A stretch of DNA of 64,000 nt. Origin: Nitrospira sp. (GTDB taxonomy: Bacteria; Nitrospirota; Nitrospiria; Nitrospirales; Nitrospiraceae). Positions 4,624 through 20,490 of this stretch are shown one piece after another. The position numbers and the translations under genes were made by a program. How positions within the stretch are numbered: the stretch's first letter is position 1; every line of letters begins with the position of its first letter. The notes below the pieces were generated by a model. The model saw nothing but the letters and a program-made list of their open reading frames with translations. It made no database searches and had not been told where the DNA came from. The stretch covers positions 1,395,053-1,459,052 of the forward strand of contig CP092079.1 in NCBI GenBank assembly GCA_022226955.1. The letters run 5' to 3'.

Positions 4624-7600
4624 TTATTTCATGGCGGTCGGAATGGCTTTCACTGCGGGCTCCACTTCCGCCTGCTTGGCGCCCATACCGGCTGCACCAA
4701 GCGGCTGGATCCGTGAATCGCCTGCCGGCAACACACGGAGGTAGCCCCACTGTCCTGACTGCGTGTAGGGCAGCCGGGCGTTGGACCAGACGAAATCTCC
4801 CACCTGACGATACGGGCCGCCCGCACCGCCACGAATGAAGACATCGAGGACTTCCGATCCGGCATACTCCACAACGCTGATCATGTCGGCACCCGGCATG
4901 TACGGCTCGATCGGCCACTCATGGCCTTCGACGCCGAACATTCCGTTCTGCTCGCTATTCGCACCGATGACATGGATGCGAAGCGCGTCACCCGCATGCG
5001 CCTCGATGAGAGGCGTGACGGGATCCTCGGGCTTATCCACCGCACAGGGCTGGAAAATCTTCCCGAGCGAGCAGCCTTGCTCTTCACGGAACTTGTACGG
5101 TTCGGCGCGGTAGTTCACCGACGTCAAACCGGCGACGTTCTGCACATAGGGCATGAACGCGGTTCCGATGATGTTGTCTTCATCCTGGAAGAACAGGGCG
5201 ACATCGCGATAGTTCCGCTTGCCGGCATTTTCGGTCAAGCTCGTATCGACAATGACGTCCGCGCGCCAGGCATTCTTCTGCGAGATATCCGCACCGGTCA
5301 CCGGATCGCGGTACTGCGACCCACGCGGACCGACGACGATGGCACCGTACAATCCGTTGCGCGGATTCAGCACGATGTTGCCGCCGTCCCACACCAGCGA
5401 CGTCGTTTCCTTATTGGAAGGATGCGCGTAATAGGTGTAGACGCGGCCCTCGCCCGGAGCCACAGTCTGCTCGCCGGCGTTGTTGCCGACATTCAGGCCC
5501 TGGCTGTCCTTCGGATCGAAAGCCAATCCCGGCGCAAAGAACGACGCCCGGCTCGCCTTCATCTTGTTCTTCAGATTCACCTTGATACAATCGCCCAGGT
5601 TGACACGCAGCGTCAGCGGATTCGGAGTCAATCCACTGGCCACGGTCGTGGCTTCCTCTTCCAGCGCGAAGATCTTGCCTTCCGGCATGGTCATTTCGAT
5701 CTTCCGCTCGAAGTCCACCTCGATTGCGTCCGGCGCCTTCGGATGGAGCTTCATCGGGCGATCCAACGCCACGACGTTGAAGCTCTTCACCGGAGCATTG
5801 GCCGGGCACACCGAGCTGGGAGTGGCGGGAATCCCGAGGGGATTGGTCCCCTTGGGCAACGGCTTCAGGTCCGCCGTTTCCTTATCGAGCACGCGCACGA
5901 TACCCCATCCACCTTCGGCGAAGTGTGACGTTCTGCCGTTGAAGTGAATGTAGTCGCCCGGCATGCCCTGGAATCCGCCCGCCTTGGTCACGAGGTCATA
6001 CCGCTCGGCGATCCCGACGTGAATCGAGTTCTTCCGGTTGGCATCCGCCGCATACCGTTCCGTGAGGAAGGTGTGGCCGGCGATCGTCCAGACGTGGGAT
6101 TCGTTCATCAGCTGGTGCAACAGGCGGAACACCATGGTGTCGCCCGTGTACGCCCGCAGGAGCGGGGTGCCCGGATCCCCATGGATCGCGCTGCTGAACA
6201 GCTTCGACGTATCAGGGTTGTTCGAGAGGCGCTGCGCAAACGGAGCCGCGCGGAAGTTGAACCCGCTGCCGGTCGTATGCGTCCCGCCGTTGATGTACTT
6301 GTTCGGCGCGTTCAAGATCTTATCGGGCATCTGGAACGACACCGTCTTGCCTGCTTCCAACGCCACTTCGATCGGCTGTCCCGGAGGATTGCCGGCTTCG
6401 ATGACGTTCACCGTGTGCGGCACCGTGTCGTGGATGGAAACCATCAACTCACGGAAGCTGCCGCTGACACCGGCACCGATCGGCTCGTTGCTATGGATGT
6501 CCGCGATCGGACCGCTCCACACCAGCTTGCCGTTCTTCGGATCGTGATAGGTGGACCCGAACGGCTCCACGATCGTCACGCCGAACCCGCCATGCGGCCA
6601 GGTCGTCGCGCCGAACGCGTGGTCATGCCAGAACACGGTCCCCATATCCACGTCTACCCACCACCGATACCGCACAAACTCCGGCGACACGAGGTCGTTG
6701 GCCGGATGGTTGTTCTTCAACGGCTTGAAGAAGGTCACCTGATCGCCCTTGATCTCCTTGATCCGGGCGACTTCGGAGCAGCTCTTATCCCGCGGCAGTG
6801 ACGCCGTGGCATCGTTGCCCTTCTCCAAACAATCCATGCCCACCATCAATTCGGTGTTCACATGGAACTTCGAGGCACCCGGCGCCATCTCGATCTTGAT
6901 GGAAGAGGCTCCGGCCTTGGCTCCGCCGACGATCTTGGCGACCATCGGAGCGGGCAAGCCGTGCTTGGTCTTCTTCCCCCACATTGTGAAGGGGCGCACG
7001 GACATTTCGTACTCCATCCCGGAAATGACTCCGTCCGAGTTCCCTGTATCGAACTGGAAGAAGTGAGGATGGATGTTGATCTTGGACGACTGGAAATTCG
7101 TGTAGTCGTCGTCGTCCCACTCGCTGGTGAGCACCAAGTCCACACAGTCATACACGTTGGCGCGAATGACCGCCGGGAGCTTGAGATCGTCGTTCGCTCT
7201 GGTCAACCGCTCTTCTTCATGGAGCAAGTAGATCAGACCGTCTTTATCCACCATGGCCGGCTCTTTCCCCTGCTTTTTGGCAAGAGTGATCGGCATGCGG
7301 ACAAAGTGAATGTTGTAGAACTTCCGGTTCGCATTCACCGGGCAGAGACTCCAACGTCCCTGTTCGCCAGGAATGGCTGGCTCGGAGGTCCGCTCGCCAT
7401 TGGCATCCTGGTGGATCGGCTCCAGCCAGGGGGCGCCACTATGGTTCGCGGAGAACGGCACACGCTTGCCGAAGTGCGGCTTGAACAACGGCCAGGCCAT
7501 CTTGCCCGTGGTCGGGTCGAAGAGAATAGCCGGTCTGGTGCTGTCATCCCACTTGGCTGCCCATGGATACTTCGGATTTGCGGCGGTGCTTTCCCGCTCG

Positions 7601-9564
7601 CCGCGGGCGATGTTGCCGTCCCACTTCCAGTCCCACACCGTCGAATCGTAGGCCATGATCTGGCCCTTCTCGTCGTTGGTGTGGCCCGGTTGACCCTGGG
7701 CTGGCACGAACATCTCGACCCAATCCTTGATATTCACCACCACCGGATCGGATTTCCAGTTCGTCTTCTGGCTCTTGTCGACGATCTGGAAGGTCTTGCC
7801 GAACCAATCGACAGTGGTGCCGATCAGCTTGTCCGACGAGACGCCCTGCTTCATGCGGCCCACACGCTCCGGCAACTCACGCATATCCGGCATCGTGTCG
7901 GTATGCGCCGCGCCAACTTGCAGCGTGTTGTAGAACCGGCCGTACCCCCACATGCCCGCGACGTAGTGATGCGCCACATGACAGTGATAGAGGAACTCGC
8001 CGGCCAGATGCTGACAGCCACCGCCGCCGCACTCAGGCTCCAGGTCGAGCGCTTCTGACGGCCCGATGACTTCCACGTCCACCCGATCGGACTTGGTCCG
8101 AATGACCGGATATTTCACCGGACCATCCTGACCCATCGCCCACAGGGTGTTGGGTTCGGTGCCAGGGCTGCGCTGCCAGCGGATGGTTCCGCTATGAGGA
8201 TGATGGGAGTGAAACACTTCCGATCCACCATGCACCACCCGCCACTTGACCGGGTCACCCATGTAACCGCGCGCCACCGTGGTGGGAGGATCGCCGAAGG
8301 TGTACGCACTGTACGCCATCGACTCATCCTCGAATCCAAAATATTCATGCTGCAAATGCATCTGATCGATGCCGAACGGCTCGCTGCGATAGTTGATCGC
8401 GCGACCGCCTGGGCGGTACGCATCCGTCAGCGGATCGCGCTGCGGCAAGAAGTCGCCCTTCTTGTTCAGCGGACGGAACGCTTCATCGCCGATTTCGTGA
8501 TAGAACAGCACGAATTCGCGGAAGTCCGGTCCAGACCCGTTGTCGATCATGACCTGCCATCCGCTGTCGGTCTCGGGCGCGGCGCCCGTGCCGAGCGGAT
8601 CGAGGTATTTGGAGCCCTTCGGCTCAACGATGAAGGCACCGAAAAGACCCAACACCGTCAATTCGCGGTCATGGCTCCAGGAGTGGAACTGCCGCACACC
8701 TTCCTGCATGCTTGGATAGATGTACCATTCGAATTCCTGCGTCTTGCCCGGCGACACCACCGTATCGGGGTTTGTCGTCGTGGCGGGCTTTCCGGTCGCG
8801 CTCACGATCATGCTGGAGGCCTGGATGACCAAGCTGCCATCCTCACCTTCCATCTGATTGCGCAACGTCATCTTGACGCAGTCGCCCTGATTGGCGCGGA
8901 GCACCAACGGCTGAATCGCATCGCCCTGGTTTCCAGTCGTAACCGCGCCCGGATCGAACCCATCCTTCTCGCGGGCCTCCTTATTCTTGGCCTCTTCCGC
9001 GCGAACCTTATCCAGGTCGTGGGTATGGGCATACATATACCCAGGATAGAAGTCGAGCCAGCGATTCAACGAGACTTCCACGTTGATCATCGAGACATCA
9101 AACTTCTTGACCGGGGCATTGGCCGGGCACTTGCCGCCGGACGACAAGACCGGCTCGCCCTTGCCGGGATCCGACATGAGCAGGAAGCTGCTGCCGTCCT
9201 GCCCCATGTACTGGTGCATCATCGACATGTCGTTGAACGCACCGGAAGTCGGGGTCGCCTGCGCGTCTTTCTTCGCCTGGTTCCCCAGCTTCTCCATCAA
9301 CCGATGATGCTGCATCTCCATCTTCTCGGCATTACCGGCACGACCTTCCATGGCGTTTTCCACCACGGTCTGGCCCTTGAGCTGCTGCGTCCAGCCTGGC
9401 ATCGCGACCGGAGTCGCGTGGCCGTCGTGCAACGGCTCAGCGGGTCCTGCCGCAAACAGCCATGGTGTCGCCACCAGGCTGCCCGTCAGCAACACGCTGT
9501 GCAGCATCAACGACAGGCGGCTACGCCTCCGCTGACGCTGAGATTGAAGTTGAAAAACCCTCAT
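4624..9564 (-). CDS. Giant periplasmic multicopper oxidase, MofA/MnxG-like (putative Mn(II) oxidase)
   Basis: At 1646 residues this is close in size to MofA of Leptothrix and larger than MnxG. GGGAGG precedes the ATG. A basic N-terminus (RRRSRLSL) and hydrophobic stretch to about residue 40 form a signal, perhaps Tat-like but not canonical. Three internal repeats start with a C-PxNA motif (about residues 146, 741 and 1253), so six cupredoxin domains are likely. Copper ligands visible: His294/His298, the His452-457 cluster, a type 1 site His527-Cys528-His529 with His533 and Met538, the His832-Pro-His834 pair, and His980-Asp-His982 with His991. Unit 3 (after residue 1250) has lost nearly all ligands. 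Family members oxidise Mn(II) or other metals; the substrate here is inferred, not shown. Confidence 0.85.
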   Translation of the reverse strand: MRVFQLQSQRQRRRSRLSLMLHSVLLTGSLVATPWLFAAGPAEPLHDGHATPVAMPGWTQQLKGQTVVENAMEGRAGNAEKMEMQHHRLMEKLGNQAKKDAQATPTSGAFNDMSMMHQYMGQDGSSFLLMSDPGKGEPVLSSGGKCPANAPVKKFDVSMINVEVSLNRWLDFYPGYMYAHTHDLDKVRAEEAKNKEAREKDGFDPGAVTTGNQGDAIQPLVLRANQGDCVKMTLRNQMEGEDGSLVIQASSMIVSATGKPATTTNPDTVVSPGKTQEFEWYIYPSMQEGVRQFHSWSHDRELTVLGLFGAFIVEPKGSKYLDPLGTGAAPETDSGWQVMIDNGSGPDFREFVLFYHEIGDEAFRPLNKKGDFLPQRDPLTDAYRPGGRAINYRSEPFGIDQMHLQHEYFGFEDESMAYSAYTFGDPPTTVARGYMGDPVKWRVVHGGSEVFHSHHPHSGTIRWQRSPGTEPNTLWAMGQDGPVKYPVIRTKSDRVDVEVIGPSEALDLEPECGGGGCQHLAGEFLYHCHVAHHYVAGMWGYGRFYNTLQVGAAHTDTMPDMRELPERVGRMKQGVSSDKLIGTTVDWFGKTFQIVDKSQKTNWKSDPVVVNIKDWVEMFVPAQGQPGHTNDEKGQIMAYDSTVWDWKWDGNIARGERESTAANPKYPWAAKWDDSTRPAILFDPTTGKMAWPLFKPHFGKRVPFSANHSGAPWLEPIHQDANGERTSEPAIPGEQGRWSLCPVNANRKFYNIHFVRMPITLAKKQGKEPAMVDKDGLIYLLHEEERLTRANDDLKLPAVIRANVYDCVDLVLTSEWDDDDYTNFQSSKINIHPHFFQFDTGNSDGVISGMEYEMSVRPFTMWGKKTKHGLPAPMVAKIVGGAKAGASSIKIEMAPGASKFHVNTELMVGMDCLEKGNDATASLPRDKSCSEVARIKEIKGDQVTFFKPLKNNHPANDLVSPEFVRYRWWVDVDMGTVFWHDHAFGATTWPHGGFGVTIVEPFGSTYHDPKNGKLVWSGPIADIHSNEPIGAGVSGSFRELMVSIHDTVPHTVNVIEAGNPPGQPIEVALEAGKTVSFQMPDKILNAPNKYINGGTHTTGSGFNFRAAPFAQRLSNNPDTSKLFSSAIHGDPGTPLLRAYTGDTMVFRLLHQLMNESHVWTIAGHTFLTERYAADANRKNSIHVGIAERYDLVTKAGGFQGMPGDYIHFNGRTSHFAEGGWGIVRVLDKETADLKPLPKGTNPLGIPATPSSVCPANAPVKSFNVVALDRPMKLHPKAPDAIEVDFERKIEMTMPEGKIFALEEEATTVASGLTPNPLTLRVNLGDCIKVNLKNKMKASRASFFAPGLAFDPKDSQGLNVGNNAGEQTVAPGEGRVYTYYAHPSNKETTSLVWDGGNIVLNPRNGLYGAIVVGPRGSQYRDPVTGADISQKNAWRADVIVDTSLTENAGKRNYRDVALFFQDEDNIIGTAFMPYVQNVAGLTSVNYRAEPYKFREEQGCSLGKIFQPCAVDKPEDPVTPLIEAHAGDALRIHVIGANSEQNGMFGVEGHEWPIEPYMPGADMISVVEYAGSEVLDVFIRGGAGGPYRQVGDFVWSNARLPYTQSGQWGYLRVLPAGDSRIQPLGAAGMGAKQAEVEPAVKAIPTAMK

Positions 9565-9648
9565 ATCGCGGCCTCCCCCCTGTTATGACCGCCCCCTGGG
9601 CGGACTGTTGAAACACACCGACAATGGATACTCGCCAGATACCTTCCA

Positions 9649-9793
9649 GGTACTTTATCTGCGCGATAAAAGTACCGGCCTCCGACTCTCTCCGGCCTTT
9701 CCTCTGGAGGAATTTAGAGCTGGTGAAGGATCCTTCTCACGAAGGAGTGGGTCATTCGGAGGCCGGTCCAAAATTACCCAGACCTTCACCAGC
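9649..9793 (-). ncRNA. Structured 5' leader with interleaved helices upstream of the oxidase
   Basis: Three long helices can form in the minus-strand leader. P1 pairs 9783-9793 with 9719-9729 (11 bp, perfect). P2 pairs 9756-9767 with 9674-9685 (12 bp, perfect). P3 pairs 9665-9676 with 9649-9659 (11 bp with one bulged base, 5-base loop). P1 and P2 are interleaved, as in a pseudoknot. P2 and P3 share bases 9674-9676, so they compete at their edge. The element starts just downstream of the sigma-54 type promoter and ends 85 bases before the oxidase ATG. It matches no riboswitch class that I recognise; regulation of oxidase expression is inferred. Confidence 0.5.
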
Positions 9794-9806
9794 GGAGCTT
9801 TCTATC

Positions 9807-9822
9807 CGCAAGCGTTATGCCT
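9807..9822 (-). promoter_or_regulatory. Sigma-54 (-24/-12) promoter candidate for the multicopper oxidase
   Basis: On the minus strand the sequence reads AGGCAT, five bases, TTGC, with GG and GC at the exact -24/-12 spacing; the consensus is TGGCAC-N5-TTGC. The predicted start near 9796 would place the structured leader at the very 5' end of the oxidase mRNA. The neighbouring activator gene supports the call. Confidence 0.55.
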
Positions 9823-9931
9823 AACTCACCGTTCCTCCAGCATATTTTCGATTTCTCAGTCCTGGAGCGGCTTCGATAACACTCACTGTTCCATCAGGAC
9901 ATTGCACCCGAATGGCATGATTCCACAGGCC

Positions 9932-10008
9932 TAGACAGACAAATACACAACAACTACTCGATGCTAGCGTTTTCAGTAACTTATACTGTCCATCTTGATA
10001 GACAGACA
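9932..10008 (-). promoter_or_regulatory. Enhancer-like dyad and half site for a sigma-54 activator
   Basis: A 20-bp dyad at 9986-10005 has arms CTGTC-C-ATC and GAT-A-GACAG, with one mismatch per arm and a 2-base centre. The 10-base word TAGACAGACA occurs at 9999-10008, overlapping the dyad, and again at 9932-9941. These sites lie about 140 and 200 bases upstream of the predicted sigma-54 start, the usual place for activator binding. Which activator binds is unknown; the adjacent one is the obvious candidate. Confidence 0.45.
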
Positions 10009-10046
10009 GGAAAGATGAGTTGGGGCAAATGAGGGCACTGAAAGAC

Positions 10047-10070
10047 GGACTAGAGGGACTAGAGGGACTA
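10047..10070. repeat. Short tandem repeat GGACTAGAG
   Basis: Two perfect 9-base units (10047-10055 and 10056-10064) and a partial third overlap the stop codon of the minus-strand activator gene. The array is probably slippage-derived; no function is evident. Confidence 0.6.
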
Positions 10071-11462
10071 TTGGAGGCCGTAATCTCGCAGCTTATTGTA
10101 GAGACCAGCCCGACTGATCTTCAGTAACTTGGCGGCTCGAAGCCGATTCCCGCCAGTCTTCCGCAAGGCTTCGACGATGCGTGTCCGCTCCGTGAGACTG
10201 ACTGCGTCCCGAACCACCGTGCGCAGCCCTTCCTCCGGCGCCTTTGCTCTCAAAGCCACCATATCGCTGCACATCAGATCTGGACCCGTCGTTGTCACAA
10301 CCGCCCGCTCGATGTAATGCTGCAACTCGCGAACATTCCCCGGCCACACCGCCTCGCTGAGCGCTTGCACCACATCGGACGAGACCGTTCTCAGCGACTG
10401 CCGATGGCGCTTGCACGATGCGGCGAGGAACTGGTCGACCAACAATGGAATATCCTCTCGCCGCTCTCGAAGCGGAGGCAACGACAACGGCAAGACCGCC
10501 AAGCGATAATACAGATCCTGCCGGAACGCCTTCATCTTCACCAACTCACCCAGATCTTTATTCGTGGCCGACACGACTCGTACATCGACCTTGACCGGCT
10601 GATTGCCTCCGACTCGTTTGACTTCCCCTTCTTGCAGCACACGCAACAGCTTGGCTTGAAACGTCGGCGTCGTATCGGCAATCTCGTCGAGGAAAATGGT
10701 GCCGCCGTCCGCTTCTTCGAACAGACCCCGCTTATTCGCCGTCGCACCGGTAAACGATCCCTTCATATGGCCGAATAACTCGCTCTCCAGCAAGGTCTCC
10801 GGCAGCGATCCGCAATCGACCACCACAAACGGCTTGTCCCGGCGATCACTGAGGCGATGAATGGTCTTCGCGACTAACTCTTTACCCGTGCCGCTTTCAC
10901 CCTGAATCAACACGGTCGCCTGGCTCTCCGCGACCAATGCAATCATGTCGAACAACTGCTGCATCGCCGCGCTGCGGCCGATGAGATCGCCCAAATGCTC
11001 TCGCACCATCGGAACCGGACGGTCGTCCGGCTCCTGAAACACCGGTCGAAGAGCTGGCTTAGGAGAGGACGTAAATAACACCAGCATGGAGGCGACCTGC
11101 CCGTCGCTGGCGACCAGTGGAAACGCCTGATGCATCCCGCAAGCAGTCCCATCGCCCTCTACGCCGCACGACACGGACTGGACATCCGGCGATTGAAACA
11201 CTTTCGTCGCCGGGCAGGCGCCGCAGGGATCGGGGCGACGCGCAAACGCCTGATAGCACTTTGCAGGATGCGAGCGGGATTCACCGGACACAGGCTCGGC
11301 CCATGCCGCCGAGTTGGCGTACACGACGTTGAACTCGCGATCCATCACCGCGACACGATCGGATATTCCACCCGCAAGCTGCCGAATCGCTTCGACCCGC
11401 GCGGCGAGAATGGGATCGTTGAAAGGGGAAACGACACACACCTCTGGCTGAGATCCGGCCAT
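10068..11462 (-). CDS. Sigma-54-dependent activator with Cys-rich PAS domain
   Basis: The 464-residue protein has an N-terminal PAS-like sensor (about 25-130), an AAA+ ATPase domain (about 155-385) and a C-terminal Fis-type helix-turn-helix ([20 protein letters not shown]). The AAA+ part shows Walker A GESGTGKE, the sigma-54 contact loop as GSFTGA, and Walker [12 protein letters not shown]. The PAS region carries Cys69, Cys80, Cys83, Cys99, Cys108 and His111. The CYQ..C-x2-CP pattern is common in PAS proteins of related bacteria but could also bind metal or sense redox. There is no receiver domain. An AGGGAG ribosome site precedes the ATG. The gene directly precedes the oxidase control region and is the likely regulator of the oxidase. 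Confidence 0.9.
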
Positions 11463-11492
11463 CTCTCTACTCCCTATCTATTTGAACGGAAG

Positions 11493-11906
11493 CTACCGAG
11501 CCGCCTCAGTCGCCGTCACGCGCTGAAATCCACCCCTATCTCCCTTAAGCAATTGTCTCACACAAGATTTCAGCTCCGCCAGATGCACCGGCTTGCTGAA
11601 ATACGCCGTCGCGCCAGCGCGAAGCACTTTCATCCTGACCTGCTCATCGCCGAACGCCGTCATGACGACGATCGGACAGTTCGGAGCGACGGCTCTGAGG
11701 CGATTGATATAGTCAACGCCTCCCGTGTCAAAACGAATCTCCGTCAGAACCAAATCCGGCATAGCACTGAGAACGAGCTGAAAGGCCTCTTCCCCGCCCC
11801 CGGCCTCACGAAGCGCATACCCTTCTCTCCACAAACTGTCGCAGAGAAGGCTGCGCATCTCTCCGTCGTCGTCAACCACCAGCACCATCGGCTTCCCCTC
11901 GATCAC
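11493..11906 (-). CDS. Stand-alone receiver-domain protein with Glu at the phosphorylation site
   Basis: The 137-residue protein is one CheY-like receiver domain. It has the acidic pocket (VVDDD, residues 10-14), the MTAFG switch block and the SKPV lysine. The phospho-accepting Asp is replaced by Glu56 (DLVLTEIRF); the NtrC-type neighbour at 14461 has DLRM with Asp56 at the same position. A Glu there often mimics phosphorylation and cannot be phosphorylated in the normal way. Start is GTG, 5 bases after AAGGAGG. It is co-oriented with the activator gene 30 bases downstream and follows a consensus sigma-54 promoter. Confidence 0.85.
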   Translation of the reverse strand: MIEGKPMVLVVDDDGEMRSLLCDSLWREGYALREAGGGEEAFQLVLSAMPDLVLTEIRFDTGGVDYINRLRAVAPNCPIVVMTAFGDEQVRMKVLRAGATAYFSKPVHLAELKSCVRQLLKGDRGGFQRVTATEAAR

Positions 11907-11964
11907 GACGCCTCCTTCACAAGCGCTTCCCCTTCACCCCATCATCCGCTTGGACCGAAGTAAC

Positions 11965-11979
11965 GCAAAGACGGTGCCA
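11965..11979 (-). promoter_or_regulatory. Consensus sigma-54 promoter upstream of the receiver/activator operon
   Basis: On the minus strand the sequence is TGGCAC, five bases, TTGC, a perfect match to the -24/-12 consensus. The predicted start near 11953 leaves a leader of about 47 bases before the GTG at 11906. The operon encoding a sigma-54 activator may thus be activated by itself or by the NtrC-type protein at 14461. Confidence 0.7.
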
Positions 11980-12033
11980 TTCGGCAGCCCCATCGCTTTT
12001 CTCAATACTAGCTATTTTGCTGGGAATCCTCGA

Positions 12034-12126
12034 TGAACGTCCGTCCTTGAAACCGCAAGCTGAAGAGAAACACCCCAACACCTGAACGTCCGACTGTTGC
12101 AAGACGCCCCAACTGGGACAAGACGC
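12034..12126 (-). promoter_or_regulatory. Direct repeats upstream of the sigma-54 promoter (enhancer candidates)
   Basis: The word TGAACGTCCG occurs at 12034-12043 and 12083-12092. A second pair, ACTG-N3-CAAGACGC, occurs at 12093-12107 and 12112-12126, with 19 bases between starts. They lie 80 to 170 bases upstream of the predicted start, where sigma-54 activators bind. They do not resemble the dyad upstream of the oxidase, so a different activator may be involved. Confidence 0.35.
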
Positions 12127-12138
12127 ACTCGACAAGCC

Positions 12139-14424
12139 CTATCCACCCTTCGGGAGCAGAATCGTAAACGTCGTCCCCTGTCCCTCCAGACTTTCCGCTG
12201 AGATCGAACCCTGATGCTCTTCGATAATGCCTTTCACCACCGTAAGGCCAAGCCCCGTTCCCTTGCCAAACTCTTTGGTCGTAAAGAACGGGTCGAAGAC
12301 TCTGGCGATCACCTCCGGAGGAATCCCACTGCCCGTATCCGCCACCGTGAGCTTCACCATGCTGTCCGCCTGCGCCATTCCGATACGCAATTGCCCACCG
12401 TCCGGCATCGCGTGAACGGCATTCATGATGAGATTGATGAGCACCTGATTCATCTGGTCGGCATCGGCCTGCACCTTGGGACAGGCATCATCCAGCTGCA
12501 TCTCAACCTGCACGCGGTTTTTCGCCAGCCGTTCCTGAAACATCTCGACGCTGCTTTCAATGACGTCCCGCAAGACCAGCGAGCCTCGCTCAGGCGGCTT
12601 GCGCCGGGCAACCGCCAGGAGCTGATTCATGACACGCGTAATGCGTTCCACCTGCGCCACAATCGTGTGCAGGCCCCGCTTCACCGTCTCATCCGTCACG
12701 CGATCCATCAGATATTCCGCGCGGCCTAGAATGACGTTCATCGGCGTTCCGATTTCATGCGCCATTCCGGAGGCGACCGTCCCGAGCTCCGCAATGCGTT
12801 CCGTCTTGCGCAACCGGTCCTGCAACCGCTTCCGCTCACTGATGTCGCGCAACATCACCAACATCGCCGGACCTTCTTCGTCGAAAAACCCCGCCGCACT
12901 AACCTCGACATCGATCGGCACGCCATCCAGCCTGAGAATCCGCTCCTCAACCATTGGAATCACCTGGCTCCCGCCGAGCAATTCATCCGCCCGCTCGCGC
13001 ATGGCCGCGTGAGAGTCCTGGTGAAAGAGATCGACAGAAGACCGCCCGACAATCTCCTCGGCCTTCACCGCGCCGAATAGTTTCAGCGCCTGATCGTTCG
13101 CAAAAATAACCCGCTCGGCCCGGATCACCAGGATGCCGTAGGGCGACACCGCAATCAGGCGCCGATACCGCTCTTCGCTTTGCCGGATCAGCTGCTCCAC
13201 ACGCTTGCGCGCGGTCACGTCCTGCGTGGTCCCTACGATACGCGTCACCCGAAGGCCTGTGCCCGTCCCTTCAAAAAACACCTGTGCCCGCACCACCATC
13301 CATCGCACTTCCCCGCCGAGATATCGCATCCGGCACTCCGACGTAAACCGTGCGTCAGGCGAGTCAGGCCGATGCGTCGGCGCCATCAGTTCCTGCAAGG
13401 CGCGCAGATCGTCGGGATGCATAGAGGCCATCATCGCTCCGAGCGAAACACCGGTCCCGCAATGATGCAGCGCCTGAGCGCGGACATCCAGCTGCACCAG
13501 ATCCGCCGCCACATCGTATTCCCAGGCCCCAAGCTGGCCGGCCTCAAGAGCCAGCCGAGACCGTTCTTCGATTCCACGCAGATGCGCTTCCGCGCGCAGC
13601 CGCTCCGTAATGTCCCGAAGGATGACGGTATAAAACGTGGCGCCATCGACCACGATATGGGAAATCGCCGCTTCGACCGGAAACTCTTCGCCGTTCCCGC
13701 GCAGCCCCATGACCGTCCCGAGCTGCCCCATCTTCCGGCTGGTCACGTGGGATCGCCCGAACTTCTCCACATGATGCCGATGGGCCTCCCTGAATCGAGC
13801 CGGTAAGAACCGGTCCAGCGAGTGGCCGATCGCGTCGCGAGCAGAACATTGAAACATCCGCTCGGCCGCCTCGTTGAAGAGGAGAACCTGCATCCGATCA
13901 TCGCTAGTAATGATGGCGTCCATGGCGGACTGGACGATCCCGTCCAGCCGAAGACTGCTCAGCAACAAGTCCCGCGCGACTTGCGACTCGCGGTGCATGG
14001 CGCCCGTTGCGCTGGCTTCCGCCAGCTCGCGCGCCGCCACGGCCGCTTCCCGCCCGGCCTCCGCCTGCGCTTGCGCCGCCCGGGCCCCGGCAAGCTGACT
14101 GCGCACCTGCCGCTGCCGGACGATCATCCACGTCATTCCCCACATCACCGTCAAGCCGAGCGCACGGTTCATCACCGCCATGACCGGATCAATGCCGCGC
14201 GGAGAAAAGTACCCGCCCAAGGCCATCAACAGAGTCACCACCGCGGCAAAGCGGTAGGAATCACGGTCGCGCGGGGATTGCAGGACAAGCACGAGCGGGA
14301 TGAAATACAAGAGCCAGTCGGCCCATCCGAGCGGCGTCAGGAGATCGAGGACAAAAATAGAGGCAGTGAGCAGGGCAACCAGCCCAGCCCCTAGGCGGGA
14401 GAAGGCTTCAGATGGTGGACTCAC
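12139..14424 (-). CDS. Membrane sensor histidine kinase with multiple PAS domains
   Basis: The 761-residue protein starts with about four membrane helices (residues 10-105). A coiled, Ala-rich linker (about 108-150) follows, then three PAS/PAC units (about 160-280, 285-410 and 415-535). The HisKA domain has His556 in GMAHEIGTP. The ATPase domain has N-box [11 protein letters not shown]1 DTGSGIPPE and G2 GKGTGLGL. It is downstream of the NtrC-type regulator by 36 bases and most likely phosphorylates it. The signal is unknown; the short loops of the membrane part suggest sensing within the membrane. Confidence 0.9.
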
Positions 14425-14460: not shown

Positions 14461-15837
14461 CTACTCGTGCGTCTTCGCTTCTTCAATCTCGCTAAGCTTG
14501 CGATAGAGGGTTTTCCGGTCGATGCCCAAGGCCTGCGCGGCCTGATATTTATTCCCGCCGGTCTTGTCGAGGATCTTCTTGATGTACTCTCGTTCGATCT
14601 CCTGCAGCGGCAGCATCTTTTCCGCCGCTTCGTCGAGCACCCGCCGGTCTCCGCGGGCGCCCTGCACCGCCTGGGGCAGATCGTCCGGCGAGATTTTTTC
14701 GCCGCGATTGAGCGTCACCGCCCGCTCCACCACATTTTCCAACTCGCGGACATTGCCTGGCCAGTTGTAGTCCATCAACATCGCCAGCGCCGATTCACCG
14801 ACTCCTTTGACTTCCTTGTTCCGGGCCTCGGCGCATTTCTTCAAGAACTCTTCCACCAGAATGGGAATATCTTCCCGGCGATCCCGCAACGGCGGCAGCA
14901 TCACTTCAATGACATTGAGCCGGTAGAACAAATCGTCGCGAAACCGCTTCGCCTTCACCTCTTCCGCAAGATGCAAATTGGTCGCGGCAATAATCCGCAC
15001 ATCGACGGCGATCGGCTTTGTGGCGCCGACCCGGCGGATGTCCTTTTCTTGAATGGCCCGCAAGAGTTTGGCTTGCAGCATAATCGGCAGCTCGCTGATT
15101 TCATCGAGAAACAACGTGCCCTTTTGCGCCTCTTCAAACAGGCCGCGCTTATCCGTCTTGGCATCCGTGAAGGCCCCGCGCATATGGCCGAACAACTCGC
15201 TTTCCAGCAGCTGCTCGGGAATCGCAGCGCAATTGACCGGCACGAACGGCGCATCCTTGCGATCGCTATTATAGTGAATAGCTTTCGCCACCAGCTCTTT
15301 TCCCGTTCCGCTTTCGCCGGTGATCAGCACATTGGTGGGGCTATCCGCGACGCGGCGGATCAGGTCGAAGACCGCCTGGATCGCTTTGCTCTTCCCGAGG
15401 ATGTGATGAAAACTGTACTCCTTATGCACTTCCTTCCGGAGCCGGCCGACTTCCCGCCGCAACGCGGATTCGCGCACCGCGCGCTCGACCACTCGAATAA
15501 TCTCCTCGGTCTTCACCGGCTTCGTCAGATAGTCGCTCGCGCCTCGCTTCATCGCTTCGACCGCCGTTTCGACGGACCCGAAGGCAGTCATGAGAATGAC
15601 GCCAATATCGGGATACAGCCGCTTGATCTCAAGCAGCAATTCCGTGCCGAGCATCCCCTTCATGCGCAAGTCGGTCAGCACCACGGCGAAATCTTCCTCG
15701 GCCAGGAGTTTCAGCGCCTCCTGCCCGCTTCCCGCCGTCGAAATCTGATGTCCGCGATCCTTGAGCACGTCGAACACCAGTTCGCGCATCTCGGCATCGT
15801 CGTCAACGACCAGTACCGCGCCCCATTCTTCCGTCAT
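14461..15837 (-). CDS. NtrC-family response regulator
   Basis: At 458 residues it has a receiver domain with Asp56, an AAA+ domain with Walker A GESGTGKE and Walker B GTLFLDEISE, and a Fis-type DNA-binding helix at the end (TGGNKYQAAQALGIDRKTLY). The sigma-54 contact loop reads GAFTDA instead of GAFTGA, a variant seen in other working activators. It is the first gene of an operon with the kinase that follows, so the pair forms a complete two-component system. A possible target is the consensus sigma-54 promoter at 11965. Confidence 0.92.
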   Translation of the reverse strand: MTEEWGAVLVVDDDAEMRELVFDVLKDRGHQISTAGSGQEALKLLAEEDFAVVLTDLRMKGMLGTELLLEIKRLYPDIGVILMTAFGSVETAVEAMKRGASDYLTKPVKTEEIIRVVERAVRESALRREVGRLRKEVHKEYSFHHILGKSKAIQAVFDLIRRVADSPTNVLITGESGTGKELVAKAIHYNSDRKDAPFVPVNCAAIPEQLLESELFGHMRGAFTDAKTDKRGLFEEAQKGTLFLDEISELPIMLQAKLLRAIQEKDIRRVGATKPIAVDVRIIAATNLHLAEEVKAKRFRDDLFYRLNVIEVMLPPLRDRREDIPILVEEFLKKCAEARNKEVKGVGESALAMLMDYNWPGNVRELENVVERAVTLNRGEKISPDDLPQAVQGARGDRRVLDEAAEKMLPLQEIEREYIKKILDKTGGNKYQAAQALGIDRKTLYRKLSEIEEAKTHE

Positions 15838-19760: not shown

Positions 19761-20246
19761 TCAGTAGACGAGGGGGATTTGCTGCGCCAGTTCGAACCTT
19801 AACAGCGTGCGGATTTTGCTTTCCATTTGCAGATACCGCGCGGTTTTTGTCGCCGGCAGCACCTTTCCGACTTTATCCGCATACGTGCGCCGCAACTTGG
19901 CTTCCGTGTCTTCGACGGCAAGATATTCGTTCAAAAGCTGCTGGGCCATGTCTTCGGTGATATGCCCCTTCCCCTCTTCGTAGCCCTGCGCATAGGTCAT
20001 AATCGTCCGACCGAGGCGGTCATTCAGATCCTTGAGGTCGGCTTGATAAGACTCGTAGATGGGCCAAAACTGCTTGGCCTCCGCTTCGGTGAGATCCATG
20101 TTTCCAGCGATCAGCAATTTTTTGTCGGCTTTGAGTTTTTCTTTCAAAATCTCCATGTTGGCATCAGACACGCCACCGCCTTCCGCCATCACCGCAACCG
20201 GTGCAAGCAACACCGCGACAAATAGAAGACTCGCGCATTTCATCAT
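19761..20246 (-). CDS. Secreted helical protein, unknown
   Basis: The start chosen (ATG 9 bases after AAGGAG) gives 161 residues; an ATG 6 bases further up is an alternative. It has a signal peptide to about residue 20 (VAVMAEGG). The mature part is mostly helical and charged, with motif TEAEAKQFWPIYESYQ. That pattern recalls small periplasmic Spy/LTXXQ-like or transcription-linked heptahelical proteins, but I cannot name a family with certainty. It stands alone, convergent with nothing strongly linked. Confidence 0.65.
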   Translation of the reverse strand: MMKCASLLFVAVLLAPVAVMAEGGGVSDANMEILKEKLKADKKLLIAGNMDLTEAEAKQFWPIYESYQADLKDLNDRLGRTIMTYAQGYEEGKGHITEDMAQQLLNEYLAVEDTEAKLRRTYADKVGKVLPATKTARYLQMESKIRTLLRFELAQQIPLVY

Positions 20247-20490
20247 GGCCATTCTCTCCTTATTATTCCGAAATATAAAAAGCCGACCCACTCGCACAAC
20301 CGGCACCGTCCTAACACTCTTCGGATGATAACGCTTACTCGCTCGGCATCAATATTGTCAATGGGCCGATCCTCTTGGACCAAACAGCGTTGCCTCCCCT
20401 CTCTGAAGTTTGCTATCGTGCGCTCCGCCTCCATGCCCTGCGCGCAAGATGAATGCCGACGGGCAAACTCTTCCAAGAGGCTACTACCCG

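Follow-up and report, generated by a model that had tools for sequence, protein, structure and literature searches.

In one lineage of the genus Nitrospira, a stand-alone receiver protein, here termed REC, carries glutamate in place of the phospho-acceptor aspartate, and its sequence makes it very probable that REC is a pseudo-receiver. Our full proposal, to which we assign a probability of about 0.5, is that REC became a pseudo-receiver in this lineage, is fixed in an on-like state, and acts as the partner of the sigma-54 activator (ACT) encoded beside it. The DNA analyzed, referred to as the window, is a 64,000-nucleotide stretch of a one-contig, 3.6 Mb Nitrospira sp. genome, whose named close relatives by sequence are Nitrospira MAGs. 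REC and its phospho-acceptor codon are located in the window as follows.

11493..11906, minus strand: stand-alone receiver protein REC, 137 aa, GTG start (ORF list, Pfam, and fold model with pLDDT 85.6)
11739..11741, minus strand: REC codon 56, GAG, encoding Glu at the phospho-acceptor position (sequence)

REC is a receiver domain by both sequence and fold. It matches the Pfam receiver family PF00072 (E 1.2e-20), and its predicted structure aligns to CheY-like receivers, the top structural match being 3crn (Z 22.0, rmsd 1.9, 123 residues aligned). The first-pass annotation of this DNA had pointed to Glu56 where the adjoining NtrC-type protein (14461-15837) has Asp56, which sequence and alignment confirm. 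A canonical phosphorylatable response regulator has Asp at the end of beta3, and REC has Glu there; the loss of the phospho-Asp that defines aspartate-less receivers, or pseudo-receivers, is seen in 8 of 8 clade members, all with Glu. The same annotation held that the other active-site residues are kept. This is correct for the acidic pair Asp12 and Asp13, Thr83, Tyr102, Lys105, and Pro106 of the window protein but not for residue 60 (D+4), where the conserved Pro, which it did not mention, has been lost.

Glu56 is confined to eight Nitrospira genomes

REC matches at E 1e-30 or better were obtained in 67 of the 79 genus genomes. Glu56 occurs in eight of the 79, namely the window genome, G039, G023, G067, G014, G002, G068, and G050 (the window locus and L100-L106; records L011-L014 are four of these genomes again), and the REC ORF is intact in every one. 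Asp occupies position 56 in 59 of the 67 matches and in G047 (L160), which lies on a shortened contig, bringing the genus count to 60. ACT orthologues were found across 149 of the 235 genomes of the order. For 74 of the 78 that lie outside the genus the receiver region was taken, and all 73 readable orthologues have Asp. REC is deleted in G073 and unusable at contig ends in G044, G020, and G070; G006, G026, G029, G048, G057, G071, and G074 gave no REC match at the cut-off. Paralogues L096, L097, and L099, all with Asp, were left out before counting, and some counts also omit partial rows, among them L063 and L098. The contig of G025 that holds L063 carries three receiver matches with repeated kinase and activator pieces, the result of either duplication or an assembly effect.

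An alignment of orthologues at this position had been suggested in the first-pass annotation, with the caveat that they might have Asp and Glu56 might be a lone substitution or a sequencing error. The counts above bear out the Asp in the orthologues but not the rest of the caveat: because Glu is common to eight genomes, an error or lone substitution was rejected.

The substitution arose once and was accompanied by changes in the beta3-alpha3 loop

The change from Asp56 to Glu, as reconstructed from the trees, is a single event inside an Asp-bearing family, in the ancestor of the eight species. In a REC tree computed with column 56 omitted, all Glu rows fall together (100/98) and a single change suffices; the NtrC+ACT tree likewise gives one group (100) and one change. 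When the tree is rooted with paralogues, the Glu rows are nested among Asp rows.

The eight Glu rows were compared site by site with 113 Asp rows, a set without G047 (L160) and without another 18 Asp loci from beyond the genus. Among the 32 REC sites conserved at 97% or more in the Asp rows, six (12, 24, 56, 57, 59, and 60) are replaced in at least seven of the eight Glu rows. The companions of Glu56 include Glu12 to Asp (7/8), Leu57 to Ile, Met59 to Leu or Phe, and, at D+4, Pro60 to Ala, Asp, Thr, or Ser. Loop 56-62 contains four of the six replaced sites and five of the 32 conserved ones (enrichment P 0.002, or P 0.008 without site 56). Asp13, Thr83, Tyr102, and Lys105 are retained in all eight Glu rows, although the invariance of any three chosen residues is weak evidence alone, with 65 of 114 sites invariant and a chance of ∼0.19.

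L106 has a Glu12/Glu56 form and the other Glu rows are Asp12/Glu56. On the REC tree L106 branches first, the remaining seven rows being grouped at 100/85, which together with its Glu12 suggests that Glu56 may have preceded Asp12; the order is uncertain, since the NtrC+ACT tree sets L106 within the group. One could read these reciprocal replacements, from Glu12/Asp56 to Asp12/Glu56 with the L106 form besides, as a reworked acidic pocket in which Glu56 and Asp12 bind metal, or in which Glu56 or the retained Thr55 is modified, so that REC is still switchable. We consider this improbable, as ordinary receivers commonly have either acidic residue at position 12, and Asp orthologues conserve Thr55 to about the same degree (109/113). 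REC does keep DD2, Thr, and Lys, and most pseudo-receivers lack an acidic DD2 according to the accessible text of PMC12632262, which would favor a working pocket; the accessible text of PMC4395418, in turn, knows no bacterial phospho-Glu signaling. Still less credible is the stricter form, in which Glu12-to-Asp compensates for Glu56 by keeping carboxylate reach and the pocket binds metal or undergoes another modification through Glu56 and Asp12/Asp13. Were the pocket rebuilt, REC would be a switchable receiver that works on glutamate instead of aspartate.

REC remains under purifying selection with a locally accelerated rate

Codon comparisons indicate that selection on REC is still purifying in the Glu clade. 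Pairs of Glu genes, with dS of about 0.1-1.6, have dN/dS of 0.08-0.25, well under 1; the median for 335 Asp pairs is 0.069. The REC-to-ACT ratio of dN/dS spans 0.67-2.87 across 27 Glu pairs, with an Asp-pair median of 0.59. Relative rates were then obtained by fitting likelihood branch lengths to 57 rows (6 Glu) with the topology fixed and with a site bootstrap, after ten partial rows, including the Glu rows L101 and L103, were dropped; the result thus describes one clade on one topology. Measured against ACT, REC is significantly accelerated in the Glu subtree, by a factor of 2.5 (95% 1.8-3.6). Residues 29-74 reach 4.3-fold (2.6-6.9), and for residues 75-121 the value of 1.6 (0.9-2.9) is not a clear acceleration. 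The relative REC rate lies at 0.25-1.05 in all 20 Asp-only subclades. When branch classes are set against the rest of the genus, the Asp sisters score 1.8, the Glu stem 5.4, and branches within the Glu group 2.9, which suggests that relaxation was highest at the change and possibly began earlier; part of it may be older than Glu56, the Asp sister branches being at 1.8 already. A coarse test on non-overlapping pairs (four Glu pairs) gave no significant acceleration (P 0.22).

The faster evolution after the change, the free choice among Ala, Asp, Thr, and Ser at D+4, and the existence of another lineage, G073, already without REC might all be signs of a decaying gene whose Asp was lost by drift once phosphorylation had become useless. 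We judge decay unlikely because the ORF is intact in all Glu genomes, dN/dS stays far below 1, Thr83, Lys105, and Asp13 are kept, and the 75-121 half is not clearly accelerated. Furthermore, Glu56 is held in 8/8 genomes even though one third-base change would give Asp. A maintained pseudo-receiver is the reading that we prefer.

The REC gene follows a two-component pair and precedes the receiver-less activator ACT

The genes around REC are transcribed from the minus strand in the order NtrC-type regulator, histidine kinase (HK), REC, ACT, and multicopper oxidase, and the NtrC-HK-REC-ACT order is the rule throughout the genus and family.

14461..15837, minus strand: NtrC-type response regulator with an Asp56 receiver, AAA+, and HTH (Pfam, alignment)
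12139..14424, minus strand: multi-PAS sensor histidine kinase HK, H-box HEIGTP intact (Pfam, sequence)
11964..11979, minus strand: sigma-54-like -24/-12 promoter upstream of REC (conserved position)
10068..11462, minus strand: sigma-54 activator ACT with its own N-terminal domain bearing invariant Cys, AAA+, and Fis-type HTH, and without a receiver (Pfam, alignment)
4624..9564, minus strand: multicopper oxidase, 1646 aa, weakly MnxG-like, downstream of ACT (Pfam/profile match)

ACT is identified as a sigma-54 activator by PF00158 (E 1.3e-71) and PF02954 (E 9.8e-11), and the GSFTGA loop is visible. The first-pass annotation had placed REC directly before a sigma-54 activator that lacks its own receiver; both points stand, with 30 bases between the genes and no receiver domain detected by Pfam in 10068-11462. 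Pfam did not recover the PAS domain that it assigned to ACT at the N-terminus, even with matches accepted up to E 5. Cys 69, 80, 83, 99, and 108, all within residues 69-108 of the N-terminal domain, are invariant in six aligned orthologues, and this domain is possibly a metal or redox sensor. A structure model of ACT was discarded (mean pLDDT 43.9). NtrC-family proteins combine receiver, AAA+, and HTH in one chain, and REC falls outside the family because REC and ACT are separate ORFs. Natural fusions of REC to the activator were dropped as evidence of partnership: 80 loci were scanned, and none of the 76 where a receiver match precedes the activator has one.

Of the 67 genus loci, 65 have a GGCAY-N5-TTGC element 45-95 bases upstream of REC and no copy elsewhere in the upstream 350 bases; the element also precedes REC in 44 of 73 loci from outside the genus. 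The promoter was recognized through this conserved position, since a plain scan of the window was insufficient, giving 24 loose matches to a sigma-54-like pattern against 31 expected by chance. The conserved gene order and the sigma-54-like promoter before REC suggest that REC and ACT probably form one unit. An alternative is that REC is a phosphorylation-independent adaptor that serves HK or the NtrC-type regulator, perhaps by blocking phosphotransfer, and is adjacent to ACT merely through a shared transcript. In its favor, HK and NtrC are directly upstream in the same order family-wide and HK has an active His; yet a separate conserved promoter joins REC to ACT rather than to HK, and the acceleration falls on residues 29-74 and not clearly on 75-121. 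We regard this alternative as doubtful, slightly more so than decay.

Partnership of REC with ACT, proposed in the first-pass annotation as action in trans, gains from the family-wide order, the shared promoter, and the missing receiver of ACT but loses from G073 (L161), in which REC is cleanly absent between HK and ACT and both the promoter element and ACT are retained. REC is therefore not always needed there, and, if the assembly is right, the promoter would serve ACT with REC dispensable. With these points on either side, we give about even odds that ACT is the putative partner of REC.

Two other candidate correlates were rejected. A change of the kinase sensor at the Asp-to-Glu branch is not specific, as kinase lengths vary genus-wide. 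Of the 79 genus genomes, 49 contain the amoA-type family PF02461; the eight Glu genomes all lack it, but so do the closest Asp sisters (G041, G069, G011, and G003), and thus we claim no link between Glu56 and ammonia oxidation.

A proposed signal-independent partner of ACT and its relation to known receivers

We propose the following course of events. The ancestral REC, as its relatives show, had Glu12 and Asp56 and stood between the HK/NtrC two-component pair and the receiver-less ACT. In the ancestor of the eight species, Asp56 became Glu, with loss of Met59 and the D+4 Pro, and with Glu12 replaced by Asp in seven. HK should then be unable to phosphorylate REC at the canonical residue, given the chemistry of Glu. 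REC stayed under purifying selection, with clear acceleration only on the alpha2/beta3-alpha3 side. Glu56, supported by Thr83 and Lys105, would most likely hold REC in one on-like conformation, and REC would act as a signal-independent partner of the co-encoded ACT, its amount set by the sigma-54 promoter instead of by phosphorylation. The first-pass suggestion of phosphorylation-independence thus has good sequence support in the clade-wide loss of the acceptor Asp and the pseudo-receiver-like beta3-alpha3 changes, and its "permanently active" REC is plausible as a putative state.

Spo0F relays phosphate via its Asp. REC lacks a phospho-Asp, which Spo0F has, and resembles the Spo0F-type single-domain receivers (such as 6ifh and 1pey), the closest solved sequences, in consisting of a single receiver domain. 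Pseudo-receivers are an already established class, which REC, judged by its residues, joins. The available portions of the literature report that Asp-less proteins account for about 4% of all receivers, Glu being the commonest replacement at 26% (Maule et al., PMC4395418), and that pseudo-receivers diverge chiefly in the beta3-alpha3 and beta4-alpha4 loops, frequently lack the D+4 Pro, and have a non-acidic DD2 in ∼80% of cases (PMC12632262). REC shares with these proteins the receiver fold, the Glu replacement, the lost D+4 Pro, and divergence focused in the beta3-alpha3 loop and alpha2/alpha3. Unlike most of those described there, it has lost none of the other four conserved active-site residues, which include DD2, Thr, and Lys; also unlike the class, it stands alone beside a receiver-less sigma-54 activator, and close relatives have Asp orthologues at the same locus.

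Whether Glu turns a receiver on varies among proteins in the same accessible texts. Asp-to-Glu activates only certain receivers (PMC4395418, PMC12632262) and is often insufficient alone (PMC4395418); Glu at the phosphosite might stabilize the active form through contacts with the conserved Thr and Lys, an idea disproved in some proteins (PMC12632262, a 2025 review). Given this mixed record, an on-like rather than off-like state of REC is close to a coin toss. The phosphomimetic Asp-to-Glu form of NtrC (Klose, Weiss and Kustu 1993, as cited in PMC4395418) has a Glu phosphosite and a sigma-54 activator link, as REC does, but there the change was made in the laboratory and the receiver is part of the activator chain, whereas REC is natural, clade-fixed, and a separate protein. 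The Rim15p receivers of Ascomycota, as outlined in PMC12632262, also show a clade-wide Asp-to-Glu phosphosite with true receivers in relatives, although Rim15p is a fungal kinase domain and REC a stand-alone bacterial receiver.

Among the papers listed by our literature searches, none concerns this Nitrospira locus. The accessible parts of two Nitrospira studies (PMC6606698, PMC7522533) describe sigma-54 regulators near nxr genes and do not mention the REC-ACT unit. The change in REC is single and recent enough that the gene order, the kinase, and the likely output partner are still present. The Asp relatives and the Glu12/Glu56 (L106) and Asp12/Glu56 forms are a natural before-and-after series, stepwise in close relatives, with which one can ask whether Glu activates the receiver, whether losing the D+4 Pro has an effect, and whether REC switches partner.

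The multicopper oxidase downstream of ACT has its own sigma-54-like site and a candidate leader RNA

The region between ACT and the oxidase contains two conserved features.

9808..9821, minus strand: sigma-54-like site ∼257 nt before the multicopper oxidase gene, with an equivalent in 27 of 28 loci (conservation)
9719-9793, minus strand: structured leader between that site and the oxidase, with a complementary stretch at 9674-9684 (alignment)

The oxidase matches NF041487 at E 1.5e-29, far under the cut-off; in those other Glu-clade loci where it is present, identity is 93-99%. A TGTCTA..TAGACA-like palindrome (window 9987-10004) before the oxidase promoter also occurs in relatives and is a candidate activator-binding site. 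The oxidase is a possible ACT target. It was rejected as a demonstrated one: it has its own sigma-54-like site, but TGTCTA-type palindromes were found upstream of REC in none of the eight Glu rows.

The leader is a candidate cis-regulatory RNA, as suggested by conserved pairing. A long outer stem and two inner hairpins are present in 27 of 27 aligned loci, with few compensatory changes in a near-invariant sequence, and a loop stretch is complementary to the downstream stretch, which in the window is followed by a short U run. An Rfam search of 9400-12400 at E up to 0.5 returned only a chance-level snoRNA match under its cut-off, and guanidine riboswitches are the only ones mentioned in the accessible text of PMC12342949. 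Of the 79 genus genomes, 69 contain the core pattern, almost all in single copy, and the reversed control pattern was detected in none. A further GGCAY-N5-TTGC element is located at window positions 20444-20457 (minus strand), upstream of a small ORF (19761-20306).
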